Source of the DNA: an uncultured Pelagibacteraceae bacterium
GTDB lineage: Bacteria > Pseudomonadota > Alphaproteobacteria > Pelagibacterales > Pelagibacteraceae
DNA length: 59,658 bases
Assembly: GCA_902624465.1 (NCBI GenBank)
Contig: CACNXP010000004.1
Location: 1-59,658, forward strand
Reading direction: 5' to 3'
The position numbers and the translations under genes are program-made. Of this stretch, positions 4,903-11,975 are shown piece after piece. The notes below the pieces were generated by a model, which saw nothing but the letters and a program-made list of their open reading frames with translations, was not told the origin of the DNA and searched no databases. Position 1 is the first letter of the stretch. Every line of letters begins with the position of its first letter.

Positions 4903-6111
4903 TTAGCTATATCGTCGCCTAGATAAAAATTTCTTAAATACGTTGCATATGAAATTTAAATCACTCTTATTCATTCCTTGGTGACAACCAAGTAAAATTC
5001 CATTTCTCATAACGTCATCGGCAACTTTATTGCATTCTGGGTGTTTTTTATATTTTTTATTTTTCATTACTGGTTGTCTTAAAATGTTTCCAGTAAAAAT
5101 AGTTCTTGTTTGTATATTATTTTTTTCAAAAAATATCTGCATATTTTTTCTGTTAAAATAATCATTTTTTTTTAAAACTAGAGGAAAAGCTAACCAGGGA
5201 GTTTTCACACCTATATATTGCTCTGGAAGTTCAAATAAATCCTTATAATTAGAAAAAAAATTTCTCAAATATTCAAAATTTTTATTTCTTATTTTTATAT
5301 TATTTCTAAGTTTTTTTATCTGTTCTATTGCAAAAGCCGCCGACAATTCTGATGGCAAAAAATTATAACCAAGTTCTGAAAAAATATATTTACCATCATA
5401 TTCAATATTTGAGATTTTTACGTTGAACCTTTTTTTTATGCTCTCAGATTCACCAAAATTTGCAGAAGATCTACCCCAACCTCTAAGTAATTGTGCTTTT
5501 TGATATAATTTGAAATCATTAAAACAAACTATTCCTCCAGTCCCAGCTCCATTAATGATATGTGAAGCGTAAAAACTATTTGTTGTAATATCAGAAAATT
5601 TTCCTGTATTTTTTTTATTTACTGTGTAACCAATTGTATCTGCAGAGTCTTCAATTATTTTTAAGTTATATTTTTTTGCAATACGATTTATTTTTCTCCA
5701 ATCAGCAATATTTCCTATTAAATTTGGTATCATAATTGCAACTGTTTTTTTATTAATACATTTTTCTATTTGTTTGCAATCAGCTACAAATTTATTTTTA
5801 TCCACTCCGATAAAGTGGGGTTTAAGACCAAGTTGATAGATTGGAGCAACAGTTGTAGAAAAAGTTAAATTTGGAGTGATTATCTCCGAATTTTTTTTAA
5901 AATTAAATGAGGCCAAAGCTAATAAATTAGCAGATGACCCAGAATTAACCATTAAACCATATTTTTTTCCAAATATTTTACTAACATTTTTTTCTAAAGC
6001 TTTAACGTTTGGTCCATCAACTAAAGATAAACTATTATTCTTGAGTACTTTTGTTACCGCATTAATTTCTTTTGTGTTATAGACCGCTTTACCGTAGTAT
6101 ATTTTTTTCAT
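4903..6111 (-). CDS. DegT/DnrJ/EryC1-fold PLP enzyme, probable NDP-4-keto-6-deoxyhexose 3-dehydratase type
   Basis: 402 residues of the sugar aminotransferase fold: NSGSSANL (56-63) for cofactor phosphate, EDSADT (154-159) with the Asp that contacts the pyridine nitrogen, then SFYASHIINGAGTGG (179-193). The residue that is Lys in aminotransferases of this family is His184. His here is the hallmark of 3-dehydratases such as ColD and RfbH/E1, which keep PMP free to remove the C3 hydroxyl. LLRGWGRSS (208-216) and KYIFSELGYN (241-250) also resemble RfbH-type enzymes, but the cysteines that bind the E1 [2Fe-2S] cluster are absent at this place. It is the last gene of the minus-strand sugar island. 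Confidence 0.75.
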   Translation of the reverse strand: MKKIYYGKAVYNTKEINAVTKVLKNNSLSLVDGPNVKALEKNVSKIFGKKYGLMVNSGSSANLLALASFNFKKNSEIITPNLTFSTTVAPIYQLGLKPHFIGVDKNKFVADCKQIEKCINKKTVAIMIPNLIGNIADWRKINRIAKKYNLKIIEDSADTIGYTVNKKNTGKFSDITTNSFYASHIINGAGTGGIVCFNDFKLYQKAQLLRGWGRSSANFGESESIKKRFNVKISNIEYDGKYIFSELGYNFLPSELSAAFAIEQIKKLRNNIKIRNKNFEYLRNFFSNYKDLFELPEQYIGVKTPWLAFPLVLKKNDYFNRKNMQIFFEKNNIQTRTIFTGNILRQPVMKNKKYKKHPECNKVADDVMRNGILLGCHQGMNKSDLNFICNVFKKFLSRRRYS

Positions 6112-6641
6112 ATGTGCTTATATTTTTTTAGAAAATCTTTAAAAGTTATATTTAATTTGTCTTTTTTTGAAATCAAAGGTTTTTTTATTGGTAATTTAAG
6201 ATTTAAATTTTTGTCATTCCAGATAATTCCTTTTTCATGATTTTTAGCTCTATAAGTTGAATTTTGGAAATATACTAAATTGAATTTATTTAAAGTAAAA
6301 TATCCATGAGCAAACCCTTTTGGTATGAATATAGATTTTCTGTTTTTTTCTGATAATACAGTCTTAAATATTTTACCAAAGGTTTTTGAATTTTTTCTAA
6401 GATCTAGGCATAAATCAATAATGCTCCCCTCTAAGACACTAACGAACTTTTCTTGTTGATTTATTGACTGAAAATGAAAGCCTCTAAAAACATATTTTTT
6501 GGATTTTGCAAAATAATGAAATATCAGGTCTTTATTAAAATTTTTTTTTTTAAAAATTTCTCTTAAATATCCCCTCTTATCATTATAAAGGTTTGATTTA
6601 AATAGTTTTAAGCCATTAAATTTAGTATCAATTATTATCAT
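6108..6641 (-). CDS. dTDP-4-dehydrorhamnose 3,5-epimerase-like cupin (RmlC family), copy 1
   Basis: 177 residues with the RmlC cupin pattern: an NDKRGYLREIF start, FRGFHFQ with the catalytic-type His56, IFIPKGFAHGYF, and a C-terminal GIIWND block. RmlC enzymes epimerise C3 and/or C5 of dTDP-4-keto-6-deoxyglucose. It overlaps the neighbouring genes by 4 bases (downstream) and 14 bases (upstream), so translation is probably coupled. It differs clearly from the second RmlC at 8735, so the two may act at different carbons or on different intermediates. A sugar 3,4-ketoisomerase is less likely because the RGxHFQ motif is intact. Confidence 0.82.
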   Translation of the reverse strand: MIIIDTKFNGLKLFKSNLYNDKRGYLREIFKKKNFNKDLIFHYFAKSKKYVFRGFHFQSINQQEKFVSVLEGSIIDLCLDLRKNSKTFGKIFKTVLSEKNRKSIFIPKGFAHGYFTLNKFNLVYFQNSTYRAKNHEKGIIWNDKNLNLKLPIKKPLISKKDKLNITFKDFLKKYKHI

Positions 6642-7512
6642 TAAGATATTTAATTAAATCATTTTCAATTTCAAAATTTTGTTTCCAATGTGGTAATGAG
6701 GTAATTTTTTTTTGAATTTTTTTTTCAATCTTTTTATTTAAGACTTTCAATTTTACTTTATTATCAATTTTGGTATTAATTTTTTTAATCAATCTAACCA
6801 TATTTGTAAACTTGCTTGATTTTATAATGTAATTTCCAGGTTTAATTTTCTTTGTTAAAAATACTTTTATAGCCTGATTTACATCTTTTACATTTAAAAG
6901 ATTCAATTCAAGTTTATTTGATGAAATTTTTACACTTTTTTTTTGTCTGTGATTTTCTAAAATTGTATGTATTATTTTTTTTCTTTTGTCATTTTCACCA
7001 TAAATATCATGCAAAAACAAATTATAAAATTTTGTATTTTTAAATGAAACTTCATAGAACTTGAGTATATCTAAAAAGCCTTTTTTTGTGGCCGCATAAA
7101 GGTTTAAAGGTAAATAATTTTCAGAATTTTTATGAATCATCACGGATGAAATATTAATATATTTTTTTAATTTCTTTTTTGGATATGCTTCTAATACAGA
7201 TGTTGTAAATAGAATATTCGAATTTATCAAATCAATCATATCCTTAAAATTATGACTTCTTAAATATTTAGATGCTAAATTTATAATTGAATTTACTTTT
7301 AATTTAGACAATTTTTTTTTTAATTCTTTTACATTGTTAATGAAAATTGGTTTATAGTTTTTATAATTTTTCTTTAAAGATTTTGCCAATGCTTTATTTT
7401 TTTTACTATTATTTAAAATTACAAAAACTTGATATTTATTATTGAGAAGGTTAATGGTTAAACTTTTTCCGATAAATCCTGATGAGCCAGTTAATAAAAT
7501 TTTGTTATCCAT
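6628..7512 (-). CDS. NAD(P)-dependent extended SDR (sugar-nucleotide ketoreductase/epimerase-like)
   Basis: The start is taken at the ATG of 7512 (294 residues). It gives MDNKILLTGSSGFIG at once and overlaps the upstream stop as TAATG; an ATG at 7548 would add 12 non-conserved residues. It has the nucleotide motif GSSGFIG and a Tyr-x3-Lys catalytic pair (LYAATKKGF). There is no RmlD in the cluster, so this SDR is the best candidate for the final C4 keto-reduction of the deoxysugar. The C-terminal third is short and Lys-rich, and its substrate specificity is unknown. Confidence 0.75.
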   Translation of the reverse strand: MDNKILLTGSSGFIGKSLTINLLNNKYQVFVILNNSKKNKALAKSLKKNYKNYKPIFINNVKELKKKLSKLKVNSIINLASKYLRSHNFKDMIDLINSNILFTTSVLEAYPKKKLKKYINISSVMIHKNSENYLPLNLYAATKKGFLDILKFYEVSFKNTKFYNLFLHDIYGENDKRKKIIHTILENHRQKKSVKISSNKLELNLLNVKDVNQAIKVFLTKKIKPGNYIIKSSKFTNMVRLIKKINTKIDNKVKLKVLNKKIEKKIQKKITSLPHWKQNFEIENDLIKYLNDNN

Positions 7513-8738
7513 TATACAATCTTTAATTTTGGAACTGGAATAATCCATTTACCATGTTGTTTTGAATAATGTTTTTCTTTTGATAAAATTTCTTTTTTAT
7601 GGTTCCATGCAAATAATACACAATAATCACTGAAAGTCTTTTTGAATTTTTTTGAGTCTTCTATTTTGATAAGACTTTTTCCAGGTGTAAATTTTCCTAT
7701 TTTTGTCGGAGTATTGTCAAAAATTTTGTCAATCAATTTAAAATTGATGTCACAAAAGTTTAAGATAGTAGTACTCTTTGCTGGTGCACCATAACCAACA
7801 ATTATTTTGTTTCTTTTTTTTAATTTTGATAATATTGATTTTAATTCTCCCCTTAAAGTGACTATTCGTTTTTGAAATTTTTTAAAAGTTGACAATTTAT
7901 TTAATCCAATTCTTTTTTCTAATTTCATTTGTGAAATAACTCTAGAGCTAATTTTTTTCTTATTTCTTTTTGCTATAAAATATCTTGAACAACCTCCATG
8001 AAGATTGTTGTTTTCAATATCATAAATTTCCATACCATATTTTTTAAACAAATAGCTCATAGAACTTAATGACCAAATATACATATGCTCTGCATATATT
8101 TGGTCATATGCATTTTTTTTTAACATTTCCTTTAAAGATGGATCTTCAGTGATAATTATTCCATCATCTTTTATTAATTCACACATACCTTTAACAACAC
8201 TGTTTATATTTTCAATATGATGCATGGTATTGGTGCTTACTATTACGTCAGCTTGACCGTATTTTAGTTTTATTTTTTTTGCAGTTTTAATATTAAAGAA
8301 ATCATTTAATGAATTTATCCCTTTAGATTTTGCGATTTCACAAACATTTTTAGATGCATCCACACCCAGATGATTAATCTTTTTTTTTGCAATATTTTTC
8401 AAAAAAATTCCATCATTAGAACCAATTTCAACTACAAATGATTTGGTATTTAGTTTTGATTTTTTTATAATTTTTTTTGACAATTTATTCCAATGTTTTT
8501 TCATTACACTGGATGTCGATGCAAGATAAGCATAATTATTATTAAACATCATTTTTGCTTTAGGAATTTTGATTAATTGAAAAGTGAAGCAAGTATTACA
8601 GAATCCAGCTTCCATATTATAAAAATACTGTTTGTTGAATTGGTTTTTCTTTAAAAAAGAATTAGCAATTGGCATTTTACCAAAAGACATAAAACTTTTT
8701 ATTTTCTTATGACAGACCCTACATTTGTTGTGTTTCAA
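7512..8738 (-). CDS. NDP-hexose C-methyltransferase (TylCIII/NovU type)
   Basis: 408 residues with the three-part layout of sugar C-methyltransferases: an N-terminal zinc-binding domain with Cys6, Cys9, Cys47 and Cys50; a class I SAM domain (VEIGSNDG, 103-110); and a C-terminal domain with VGYGAPAKSTT and ILFAWN-like elements. The central YDQIYAEHMYIWS and NNLHGGCSR segments match the active-site region of the family, which methylates a carbon next to the keto group of dTDP-4-keto sugars, usually C3. Its presence predicts a branched-chain deoxysugar. It overlaps both neighbours by 1-4 bases. Confidence 0.85.
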   Translation of the reverse strand: MKHNKCRVCHKKIKSFMSFGKMPIANSFLKKNQFNKQYFYNMEAGFCNTCFTFQLIKIPKAKMMFNNNYAYLASTSSVMKKHWNKLSKKIIKKSKLNTKSFVVEIGSNDGIFLKNIAKKKINHLGVDASKNVCEIAKSKGINSLNDFFNIKTAKKIKLKYGQADVIVSTNTMHHIENINSVVKGMCELIKDDGIIITEDPSLKEMLKKNAYDQIYAEHMYIWSLSSMSYLFKKYGMEIYDIENNNLHGGCSRYFIAKRNKKKISSRVISQMKLEKRIGLNKLSTFKKFQKRIVTLRGELKSILSKLKKRNKIIVGYGAPAKSTTILNFCDINFKLIDKIFDNTPTKIGKFTPGKSLIKIEDSKKFKKTFSDYCVLFAWNHKKEILSKEKHYSKQHGKWIIPVPKLKIV

Positions 8739-9247
8739 AGAGATTTTATTTCCTTTCTAAATTGCTCAAAAGATAAACCTTTTTTATCTCTATTTGATAT
8801 TATTATTTTTTTATTTTTGATTTTTAAATTAATTTTTTTGTCATTAAAATCTAAAACTTTTTCATATTTCTTAAACCAATAATCTGATAATAAATAGACT
8901 AACTTATTATCTTTTTTTAAACATAAATAACCATGAGCAAATCCTTTTGGTATATAAAGAATTGAGTTTTTATTAAGATTAAATTTAAATGTTTTTAAGA
9001 AAGTTTTGGATTTTCTTCTTAAATCAACGCAATAATCAATTATAGACCCTTTTAAAACAATAAGTAATTTTTCTTGTTGTTTTTTTTTCTGAAAATGAAG
9101 ACCTCGGAAAACATTTTTTTTTGAAGAAACTAAAATAGAGTATTTAAATTCAGTATTGATTTTTTTTTTTTTAAATGTTTCGACTAAGTAACCTCTGTTA
9201 TCAGTATTAACCTTAGTATCAATAACTTTTGGATAAAGATACTTCAT
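8735..9247 (-). CDS. dTDP-4-dehydrorhamnose 3,5-epimerase-like cupin (RmlC family), copy 2
   Basis: 170 residues with DNRGYLVETF, FRGLHFQ (His51), ILYIPKGFAHGY and a VLDFND block, all typical of RmlC cupins. It follows rmlA directly with no spacer and overlaps the C-methyltransferase by four bases. Being next to rmlA and closer to the canonical FRGLHFQ, it is the better candidate for a classical C5 or C3/C5 epimerase. The copy at 6108 may be a specialised relative. Confidence 0.82.
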   Translation of the reverse strand: MKYLYPKVIDTKVNTDNRGYLVETFKKKKINTEFKYSILVSSKKNVFRGLHFQKKKQQEKLLIVLKGSIIDYCVDLRRKSKTFLKTFKFNLNKNSILYIPKGFAHGYLCLKKDNKLVYLLSDYWFKKYEKVLDFNDKKINLKIKNKKIIISNRDKKGLSFEQFRKEIKSL

Positions 9248-10114
9248 CTAAATCAATTTTTTTAAATAATTAGTGTAATCACAATTACCATAGAATTTTA
9301 TAGATTTTATAATTGATTTTTTATCGATCCATTTGTTTCTTAATGCTATCTCCTCTATGCAAGCAATCTTTAGACCTTGCCTTTCTTCAATTGTTGAGAC
9401 AAATAAAGAGGCATCGAAAAGGTCTTTAGTAGTTCCTGTGTCAAGCCAAGAGCCACCTCTTCCAATTTGTTCAACTTTAAGTGAATTTTTCTTTTTATAT
9501 ATCTTTATAAGATCAGTTATTTCTAATTCATTTCTTTTTGATGGCCTTAATTTTTGAGAAAAGTTTATAACTTCATGATTGAATAGATATAAACCTGTTA
9601 TAGCTAAGTTCGATTTAGTTTTTTTTGGTTTTTCGGAAATTTTTTTAATTTTGTTTTTATTATTTAATTCCACAACTCCATACTGAGATGGATTATTTAC
9701 AGGATATAAGAAAATTGTTGATCCTTTATTTTTTTTAAGGCTGTCTTTGAGTCTTAATGTTAAACCTTGACCATAAAAGAAATTATCCCCTAAAATAAGT
9801 GCAACACCCTTTTTATTAATAAAATCTTTTCCTATAATGAAGGCTTGTGGAAGGCCCTCTGGTTTTTTTTGTTCTTTATAAGTTATATTAATACCTAGTC
9901 GACTTCCATCACCCAAAAGTTTCTTGTAAGAATTAATCTCATATGGATTAACTATAATTAAAATTTTTTTTATTCCAGCCAACATTAAAACAGATAGAGG
10001 ATAATAAATTAATGGTTTATCGTATAAGGGTAAAAGCTGTTTGTTACTTACTTTAGTTAACGGACTTAGTCTAGTCCCATGTCCGCCAGCTAAAATTATA
10101 CCTCTATCTATCAT
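9248..10114 (-). CDS. rmlA: Glucose-1-phosphate thymidylyltransferase
   Basis: 288 residues, the usual RmlA length. GIILAGGHGTRLSPLT (5-20) and KQLLPLYDKP (25-34) are the nucleotide- and sugar-phosphate-binding signatures, and LILGDNFFYG carries the metal-binding Asp. It makes dTDP-glucose from dTTP and glucose-1-phosphate, the entry step of the island. The gene lies between the glycosyltransferase and the second rmlC in the minus-strand operon. Confidence 0.95.
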   Translation of the reverse strand: MIDRGIILAGGHGTRLSPLTKVSNKQLLPLYDKPLIYYPLSVLMLAGIKKILIIVNPYEINSYKKLLGDGSRLGINITYKEQKKPEGLPQAFIIGKDFINKKGVALILGDNFFYGQGLTLRLKDSLKKNKGSTIFLYPVNNPSQYGVVELNNKNKIKKISEKPKKTKSNLAITGLYLFNHEVINFSQKLRPSKRNELEITDLIKIYKKKNSLKVEQIGRGGSWLDTGTTKDLFDASLFVSTIEERQGLKIACIEEIALRNKWIDKKSIIKSIKFYGNCDYTNYLKKLI

Positions 10115-10128
10115 AAAAATACTTTATC

Positions 10129-10944
10129 TTAATTTACTTTTATAAATGGTCTAAACCATGACTTGTTATTTGTGTAAGCATTTAATAAACCTGAAAGCCT
10201 AGCATAATAAATTTTAAATCTATTTTTATTTGTAAAAAAATAAAAAAGAGTTTTAATAAAAGATCTTATCATAAATGGAAAAGTGATTATATATGCGTAT
10301 ATCAAACCATTGTATTTTTTATAAAAATAAAATTTAGACCACATAAAATGCCAATTTTTACAAATATCAATTTCATTAATTGCGTCATTTTTATAAAAGC
10401 CACCAACTACATGTTTTACCTTAGCATTAGGAATCAAATAAATTTTTTTTTTAATTTCATTATATCTCATGCACAAATCGTGATCCTCATAAAATAGAAA
10501 AAAATTTTGATCCCATCCCCCAAATTTTTGAAATTTTTTTCTATCTACAAAAATTGCATATCCTTTGCAATTTTCAACTTCAATAAATGATTTATTTTTA
10601 GATGTATTAGTGACCGGAGACAAAAATGCGAAGTTATCATTTAATTTTTTTGCTGCAGACAACAGATTTTTAATAGTTTTATTATTTAATAAAATATCTG
10701 GAGTTGACATAAATACATATTTAGTTTTTGCTTTTTTAACACCATAGTTCATTGCCGCACCATAACCATTATTAGAAGTTAAAATTACTTTTGTTTTTGG
10801 AAATTTTTTTTCCACTTTTGTTTTCAGTCTCATATCTTTTGAGGTATCAATAATAATTTTTTTATATTTTTTTCCTAAATTTTTTAAACATTTTTGTATA
10901 CGCGAGTCGCTCTTATATGAAACAATTATGACAGTAACACTCAT
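10129..10944 (-). CDS. Family 2 glycosyltransferase (rhamnosyltransferase-like)
   Basis: 271 residues. TVIIVSYKSD at the N-terminus and the SNNGYGAAMNYGVKKAK segment are typical of GT2 rhamnosyl-type transferases. STPDILLNN takes the place of the DxD-like metal site, and GGWDQNFFLFYEDHDLCMR is the acceptor/catalytic EDxD region. A hydrophobic stretch near 215-240 may lie on the membrane. It is the only glycosyltransferase in the island, so it probably transfers the deoxysugar made by its neighbours onto a surface glycan. Confidence 0.85.
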   Translation of the reverse strand: MSVTVIIVSYKSDSRIQKCLKNLGKKYKKIIIDTSKDMRLKTKVEKKFPKTKVILTSNNGYGAAMNYGVKKAKTKYVFMSTPDILLNNKTIKNLLSAAKKLNDNFAFLSPVTNTSKNKSFIEVENCKGYAIFVDRKKFQKFGGWDQNFFLFYEDHDLCMRYNEIKKKIYLIPNAKVKHVVGGFYKNDAINEIDICKNWHFMWSKFYFYKKYNGLIYAYIITFPFMIRSFIKTLFYFFTNKNRFKIYYARLSGLLNAYTNNKSWFRPFIKVN

Positions 10945-10955
10945 CTAAAATATAA

Positions 10956-11975
10956 TTAACTTTTATTTAAACCTAATCTTTTCAAAATATCTTTTTTCTT
11001 AAAGGATGAATAATAATCTATATTATTCAAATACCAATCAAACGTCTTATTTAAACCATTTTCAAAACTAGTTTTAGGATACCATTTTAATTCTTTTTTT
11101 ATTTTTTTGCTATTGAGGGCATATCTTATATCATGTGCAGGCCTGTCTTTAACAAATTTTATTTTAACATTTTTACCAATTTTTATTTTTGATTTCGCAA
11201 TCTTAAACAGGTTTCGACAAACTTTTATATTCTCAATATTTCTATTTGAGCCAATATTATAAAAATTTCCAATTTTTCCTTTTTTTGAAATTTCTATAAG
11301 GGCTTCACAATGATCTTTAACAAAAATCCACTCTCTTGAATTTAATCCTTTTCCATAAATTGGTAAATTTATATTATTTAAGATATTGTAAATTAGTTTA
11401 GGAATAAATTTTTCAGGATGTTGTTTTGGACCATAATTATTAGAACAATTAGTGATGATTGCTGGGATTTTGTAAGTTTTTACAAAAGAAGAGACCAAAT
11501 GATCTGAAGACGCTTTTGAAGCAGCATATGGAGAACTTGGATTGTAAGAATAATTTTCATCAGATCTTCCTTTAATCACATCACCATAAACTTCGTCAGT
11601 AGAAATATGAATTAGTTTTGATTTATATTTTTTTGAAAATTGTTTGAAACATTCAAGTATATTATAAACGCCTAGAATATTACTTTTTATAAAGTTTCCT
11701 GGATTATCAATTGACCTATCAACATGTGTTTCAGCAGCTAGATTAAAAATTATATGTGGTTTAAATTTAAATAATATCTTCTTTATTTTTTTGTCATTAA
11801 TATCACATTTGATGAATCTATAGTTATGTGATTTTCTGAATTCTTTAACGTTATAAAAATTTGATGAATAGGATATTTTGTCAATATTTATTACAAAATA
11901 TTTTTTCTCAAGTAATAATTCAATTAGGTTGCTACCTATGAAACCTAACCCTCCAGTTACTAAAATTTTTTTCAT
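10956..11975 (-). CDS. rmlB: dTDP-glucose 4,6-dehydratase
   Basis: 339 residues. It has the Rossmann motif GGLGFIG (8-14), the catalytic STDEVYGD block (Thr126, Asp127, Glu128) and the Tyr150-x3-Lys154 pair (YAASKASSDHL). THVDRSIDNP and NNYGPKQHPEKFIP are further RmlB signatures. It converts dTDP-glucose to dTDP-4-keto-6-deoxyglucose, the common substrate of the other island enzymes. It is the first gene of the minus-strand operon, so the operon promoter should lie in 11976-12128. Confidence 0.96.
   Translation of the reverse strand: MKKILVTGGLGFIGSNLIELLLEKKYFVINIDKISYSSNFYNVKEFRKSHNYRFIKCDINDKKIKKILFKFKPHIIFNLAAETHVDRSIDNPGNFIKSNILGVYNILECFKQFSKKYKSKLIHISTDEVYGDVIKGRSDENYSYNPSSPYAASKASSDHLVSSFVKTYKIPAIITNCSNNYGPKQHPEKFIPKLIYNILNNINLPIYGKGLNSREWIFVKDHCEALIEISKKGKIGNFYNIGSNRNIENIKVCRNLFKIAKSKIKIGKNVKIKFVKDRPAHDIRYALNSKKIKKELKWYPKTSFENGLNKTFDWYLNNIDYYSSFKKKDILKRLGLNKS

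Follow-up and report, generated by a model that had tools for sequence, protein, structure and literature searches.

Clade X, a Probable Cluster-Free Third Clade of Sugar 3-Dehydratases in Ocean Bacteria and Viral Contigs

Gene Content of the Locus

The window, i.e., the whole stretch of 59,658 nucleotides analysed here, comes from an uncultured Pelagibacteraceae bacterium. Near its start lies a gene for a 402-aa protein of the DegT fold, which is read on the minus strand from 6111 down to 4903; the ORF starts with an ATG and is intact, and the plus strand of the same interval is full of stops. This gene, a member of what we call clade X (or X), is the last of a tight minus-strand run in which neighbouring ORFs overlap or lie at most 14 bases apart; from the coordinates, its ATG and the stop codon of the preceding gene share the letters ATGA. 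The features of the run are listed in Table 1. Promoter scans gave no more matches here than in shuffled sequences, and terminator scans gave none.

Table 1. Features of the clade X locus, with the evidence for each assignment.
Feature	Position	Strand	Evidence
Predicted DegT-fold His-type 3-dehydratase (clade X), 402 aa	4903..6111	-	ORF list, PF01041, alignments, tree
His184 codon (= E1 H220 / ColD H188)	5560..5562	-	Counted coordinates and alignments
R214-F229, RSSANFGESESIKKRF, replacing the E1 cysteine loop	5425..5472	-	Sequence and alignments
RmlC-type epimerase 1 (dTDP_sugar_isom)	6108..6641	-	PF00908, E 4.1e-42; TIGR01221, 150 bits, below 155.75
SDR, presumed 4-ketoreductase (role inferred)	6628..7548	-	PF01370, E 2e-21
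Three-domain sugar C-methyltransferase	7512..8738	-	PF08421, PF13489, PF08484
RmlC-type epimerase 2	8735..9247	-	PF00908, E 2.2e-41; TIGR01221, 127.6 bits, below 155.75
RfbA glucose-1-phosphate thymidylyltransferase	9248..10114	-	TIGR01207, 380 bits, above the cut-off of 360.65
Probable family-2 glycosyltransferase	10129..10944	-	ORF; label by sequence appearance only
RfbB dTDP-glucose 4,6-dehydratase	10956..11975	-	TIGR01181, 396.9 bits, above the cut-off of 365.1

Active Site and Replaced Cysteines

Three 3-dehydratases are presented as characterised in the available text of a 2022 review, E1 and SpnQ with a cluster and ColD without; E1 and SpnQ hold their [2Fe-2S] cluster by four cysteines, and a histidine replaces the lysine in all three (PMC8987622). 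The window protein matches the DegT/DnrJ/EryC1/StrS profile PF01041 at 253.8 bits, for a cut-off of 19.8, and the NCBIfam RfbH model NF011936 at 310.6 bits, which is below the curated cut-off of 423. At the position of the Schiff-base lysine of DegT aminotransferases, it has a histidine, His184, aligned with H220 of E1 and with the His of the ColD-like rows. Pairwise alignment to the ColD crystal sequences shifts His184 by one residue, over a second His; we equate it with the first one, ColD H188, because of this alignment with the ColD-like rows and of a common S-x4-H spacing (S179-H184 in the window protein, S215-H220 in E1, and the first Ser of SSFYSH in ColD). The segments GWGR and KYIFSELGYN align with WGR and KYTYSHLGYN of E1. 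All four cysteines that bind the E1 cluster are replaced: C193, C251, and C261 by A157, S216, and I225, respectively, and C253 by N218 in the MAFFT alignment or A217 in the phmmer one. The initial annotation had described this site from the letters alone, with a histidine for the PLP lysine, two segments resembling RfbH, and no Fe-S cysteines, and the alignments bear out each part of that description.

The residue directly before His184 is a serine, S183, at a position that is Ser in 86% of the ColD-like rows and Ala in 97% of the E1 rows. The substitutions H188K and S187N together reportedly turn ColD into an aminotransferase. The title of PDB entry 3gr9 reads ColD H188K S187N, so the H188/S187 pair was a mutagenesis target, and S187 presumably matters in ColD. 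Fourteen positions distinguish the E1 from the ColD-like rows, each set being at least 80% conserved there; X agrees with ColD at five of them and with E1 at two, and goes its own way at seven, three of which are gaps in ColD. Residues proper to X in at least 95% of 40 rows are A157, E223, E255, L307, and Q334; by alignment, X also has a loop after His184 that is longer by one residue. When the PDB sequences were searched with this protein, E1 came out on top (212.7 bits), followed by E1 H220K and ColD (about 171 bits); entry 9wvy, titled as a putative 3-dehydratase, scored 90.8 bits.

Distribution of Clade X

We aligned 267 DegT rows (266 matches plus the window protein), loci fetched under two identifiers being counted twice. 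The residue-184 column holds His in 259 rows, Lys in seven, and a gap in one, and the seven Lys rows are only 25–31% identical to the window protein. The initial annotation had named close relatives with Lys at 184 as evidence against its reading: among the 203 rows of at least 38% identity, which include a cysteine-bearing E1 at 38.2% (L037), we found 202 with His, none with Lys, and one fragment without the site. Loop cysteines are two-valued over the 267 rows, with three or four in 40 rows, one in three, and none in 224. One has to keep in mind that the motifs used to label rows as X or E1 themselves contain the His and the cysteines, and that within-group counts are, therefore, partly true by definition; counts over the 267 rows or by identity are not, and the tree provides an independent check.

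By motif, 202 rows belong to clade X (80 from GTDB, being the best 80 of 334; 80 of 85 viral; 35 under G handles; six plasmid; and the window), of which 174 are distinct between residues 30 and 380; they come from SAR11, from viral contigs, and from plasmids, which belong to other Alphaproteobacteria and to one actinomycete. Subject to this partly circular definition, residue 157 is Ala in 170 of the 174 distinct rows, Cys in two, and a gap in two, and residues 209–234 are free of Cys in 173, the remaining one (L128) having a single Cys; under the same proviso, His and the C193 equivalent are found in 40/40 distinct rows with three or four loop cysteines.

When 247 genomes of the family to which the window belongs were scanned, 72 had a match at E 1e-40 or better; in 35 of these, the genome of the window among them, a match reaches at least 49% identity. 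In the GTDB scan, the best 80 of 334 loci are all titled Pelagibacteraceae, Pelagibacterales, or Pelagibacter; a 98% identical protein is found in Pelagibacteraceae bacterium AG-447-N18. Viral contigs searched with the single window protein yielded no relative, but an alignment query did, and 80 of 85 confirmed loci were kept, 25 of them at 57–61% identity and 55 at 40–49%. Plasmid relatives at 45–49% identity occur in Roseibium, Labrenzia, Ensifer, Sinorhizobium, Leisingera, and Palleronia, with another in Embleya at 38%; the X active site could be read in six fetched plasmid loci (L242, L243, L245–L247, and L251), and the same site is present in seven further loci from other alphaproteobacterial genomes. 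The class search was run with alignment A2, and its 57 matches in 385 genomes are no count of X because this profile mixed E1 and ColD rows; its 19 loci besides the window's comprise eight X-like ones (one in the genus of the window), ten cysteine-bearing E1-like ones, and one (L291) left unread by the regular expression. The phylum search matched 43 of 398 genomes; of its loci, 29 were fetched in addition to that of the window, and these read as cysteine-bearing E1. A chance substitution or a decayed gene is ruled out by the intact ORF and the many conserved relatives.

The genome of the window has a second DegT protein (G000:C5:8343-9446), with the ordinary lysine and 31–32% identity. One SAR11 contig (L108) carries both an X gene (7992-9203) and, around 15583, an ORF that is nearest to E1 among the queries (188 bits).

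Phylogeny

The trait columns (157, 182–192, and 211–236) were removed before tree building. In a tree of 92 rows, X (40 rows), E1 (31), ColD-like (14), and Lys-type (7) each occupy one side of a branch. A more careful tree was built from 55 chosen rows of the 92, without five long ones (two ColD-like and three Lys-type), and was rooted on the Lys-type; support is 100/100 for X, 99/94 for E1, 92/85 for ColD, and 95/88 for X with E1. In this tree, X is, thus, a clade of its own, the third of the His-type dehydratases, and falls outside both E1 and ColD. A sister position of X to E1 is favoured; in AU tests, the constrained groupings of X with ColD (p 0.084) and of E1 with ColD (p 0.085) are not rejected. 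If X is indeed sister to E1, the simplest reading would be a single gain of the cluster, in E1.

Two Streptomyces proteins annotated as RfbH (L249 and L252) group with E1 in the 92-row tree, which was built without SpnQ itself. Two sequences, from Synechococcus phage RB11-B (L244:7896-9194) and from a 642-kb uncultured phage record (L253:7881-9200), are of E1 type, with the cysteines kept and a longer loop, and together form the first-splitting E1 branch.

Reductase Search and Structure Model

An E3-type reductase domain (PF00970) was not found in the genome of the window (63% complete), nor in 12/12 other SAR11 genomes with X, nor in 6/6 SAR11 genomes with a cysteine-bearing E1 (L036–L040 and L042), four of which are less than 80% complete; it is present in 11/12 non-SAR11 E1 genomes. 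Since the SAR11 E1 genomes lack PF00970 too, its absence fails to separate X from E1.

An AlphaFold2 model was built on 56 rows (alignment A3), with a pLDDT of 90.7 and a pTM of 0.89; the lowest ten-residue block, 211–220 (56), lies in the replaced loop. With VIA-align, the model has its best match in E1 (3bcx; Z 49.9, rmsd 2.3, 380 aligned), then in GDP-perosamine synthase (Z 46.8) and ColD (3b8x; Z 46.5), which tie; Foldseek likewise ranks E1 before ColD. The fold alone cannot choose between a dehydratase and an aminotransferase because GDP-perosamine synthase, an aminotransferase, ties with ColD.

Genomic Neighbourhoods

Neighbours of X were scored on both strands up to a distance of 6 kb. 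Near the SAR11 X loci (best 80 of 334), rmlC was found at 42, rfbA at 37, rfbB at 36, an SDR at 30, the C-methyltransferase at seven, and gmd at one. The commonest order with neighbours is rfbB-rfbA-SDR-X-rmlC, in 22 of these best 80 of 334, and 27 of the same 80 are without any scored neighbour, for which contig ends are partly responsible; of the 54 among them with 5 kb on both sides, 19 have no same-strand scored gene. One orphan X (L081) is, from its ORFs as read by eye, in a non-sugar setting.

In ten loci of 38–51% identity (four SAR11 at 48–51% and six plasmid), rfbG is found in eight and rfbF in six. Roseibium, Leisingera, and Palleronia have the order rfbF-rfbG-X-methyltransferase-oxidoreductase, with X annotated as an aminotransferase, and the three domains of the window's C-methyltransferase recur in the methyltransferase of Roseibium. 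The seven further alphaproteobacterial loci show rfbF-rfbG (three), an SDR with rmlC (two), gmd with an rfbB-like gene (one), or nothing scored (one). In some relatives, X occupies the place that rfbH has in CDP operons. Among the control E1 loci (n = 27), rfbG is near 22, rfbF near 18, and gmd near five; the control ColD-like loci (n = 12) have gmd in five and rfbB or rfbG in none, against the single gmd near SAR11 X. Cellular X, thus, mostly accompanies dTDP or CDP pathways, unlike ColD.

Proposed Function and Alternatives

We consider it probable that the clade X protein is a nucleotide-sugar 3-dehydratase that depends on PLP/PMP and works without a cluster, and that X is a third His-type DegT clade beside ColD and E1/SpnQ. 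A histidine-type DegT 3-dehydratase without a cluster is supported, as a prediction, by the sequence, the tree, and the nucleotide-sugar operon; of the two readings in the initial annotation, a ColD-like route without an iron-sulfur reductase or a different reaction, the first appears to agree best with the sequence, the tree, and the neighbourhood. The clade as a whole, seen in ocean bacteria and in viral contigs, is most likely a third group of sugar 3-dehydratases, one that lacks the cluster. We found no paper on clade X, and no assayed member of it, among the matches listed in the open-licence literature, subscription papers being largely outside this scope.

X shares with E1/RfbH (CDP-4-keto-6-deoxyglucose 3-dehydrase) the DegT fold, the His for Lys, the WGR and KY...GYN segments, the favoured sister position, and, in relatives, the rfbF-rfbG slot; E1 differs in having the [2Fe-2S] cysteines, none of which are in X, and X has dTDP genes beside it in the window and in many SAR11 loci. 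With ColD (GDP-4-keto-6-deoxymannose 3-dehydratase), it shares the Ser before the His base, the lack of a cluster, and, presumably, a glutamate-dependent hydrolytic route; the neighbours in the window are RfbA and RfbB, not the GDP-mannose pathway genes of ColD. The substrate of SpnQ (dTDP-4-keto-2,6-dideoxyglucose 3-dehydratase) is of the dTDP class proposed for X, and, in the available text of the review, SpnQ can transaminate without its reductase; it differs in having the four-cysteine motif (PMC8987622).

The most likely substrate in the window is dTDP-4-keto-6-deoxyglucose, which RfbA and RfbB would make. PMP would form a ketimine with the C4=O of the sugar, and His184 would take a proton off the PMP carbon, with departure of O-3. 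There being no [2Fe-2S] cluster to supply electrons, the enamine would be released and hydrolysed in the manner of ColD into a 4-keto-3,6-dideoxy sugar and ammonia, and glutamate would convert PLP back to PMP. From this 4-keto sugar, the RmlC-type epimerase(s) and the SDR would form a dTDP-3,6-dideoxyhexose, probably an L sugar, to which the C-methyltransferase of the window may add a branch, yielding a branched 3,6-dideoxyhexose. The C5-epimerase of Campylobacter HS:5/HS:11 is said to be RmlC-like. The pathway proposed for X resembles the one in these Campylobacter jejuni serotypes, where, in the available text, a C3-dehydratase, a C5-epimerase, and a C4-reductase, supplied with PLP and glutamate, produce GDP-3,6-dideoxyheptoses; it differs in that the substrate there is a GDP-heptose, and the C3-dehydratase is 62–67% identical to the GDP-sugar enzymes of E. 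coli O55:H7 and Y. pseudotuberculosis IVA (PMC10440746).

The position of X as sister to E1, the WGR and YDxKY segments common to both, and the rfbH slot of the relatives' CDP operons would also fit a 3-dehydratase that still needs reduction, with electrons from flavin or ferredoxin in place of a cluster of its own. We regard this as unlikely: no invariant or nearly invariant cysteine is listed in A2 or A3 (C376 is, admittedly, nearly invariant in the narrower alignment A1), the annotated genes of the plasmid operons of Roseibium, Leisingera, and Palleronia include no reductase, and the S183-H184 pair follows the ColD pattern. Slightly more doubtful still is a different PMP reaction, such as epimerisation at C3 or a dehydration whose unsaturated or amino product would go to the neighbouring C-methyltransferase. 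The residues specific to X, the longer loop after His184, and the C-methyltransferase and two RmlC-type epimerases of the window could be read that way, but the commonest SAR11 operon has no methyltransferase (near X in only 7 of the best 80 of 334 loci), and X sits at the 3-dehydratase position of CDP operons. A 4-aminotransferase working through another lysine, which the DegT fold and the annotation in the three plasmid operons might suggest, is very improbable given the His at the Schiff-base site in all but the one fragment of the close relatives; the initial annotation had named such an activity as evidence against its reading, and nothing indicates aminotransfer. An aminotransferase of the usual kind is ruled out, with no Lys at the Schiff-base site, and so is a plain RfbH, with no cluster cysteines and a score below the NF011936 cut-off.

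Whether this cluster-free 3-dehydratase represents a third, uncharacterised lineage that does the job of E1 (on dTDP- and CDP-4-keto-6-deoxyglucose) by the chemistry of ColD is, in our judgement, an even call. If it does, a position as sister to E1 would mean that an enzyme already working by hydrolysis acquired the [2Fe-2S] cluster in a single event, and a cluster-free clade beside E1 that acts on gluco-configured dTDP and CDP sugars would allow a direct test of how the E1 radical route evolved. The generic aminotransferase annotation would be corrected, and SAR11 cells and X-carrying viruses would gain 3,6-dideoxy and C-methyl-branched cell-surface sugars, 3,6-dideoxy sugars being thereby predicted on SAR11 cells. 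According to the available text of the review, bacterial LPS contains sugars of this type (PMC8987622); as viral contigs carry the same kind of enzyme, they could serve as phage receptors.

Viral Members

None of the 25 viral X loci of the closer group (57–61% identity; 80 of 85 loci kept) has scored genes nearby, and the 55 loci of the distant group (40–49%; from the same 80 of 85) have rfbB-like ORFs at 30 and gmd-like ones at 23; viral X may, therefore, serve other nucleotides.

A split TPP-enzyme pair was seen near X in 9 of the 55 loci of the distant group (80 of 85 kept), always next after the rfbB-like gene; in one of them (L161:7140-9277), Pfam recognises E1_dh and transketolase-pyrimidine domains, and a weaker pair lies near X in L298. 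By analogy, such a pair hints at an acyl-branched 3,6-dideoxy sugar, of which yersiniose is an example. On another viral contig (L145:2771-6852), with portal and major-head matches, a carbamoyltransferase, a 2OG-Fe(II) oxygenase, X, and a small glycosyltransferase stand between virion-type genes.
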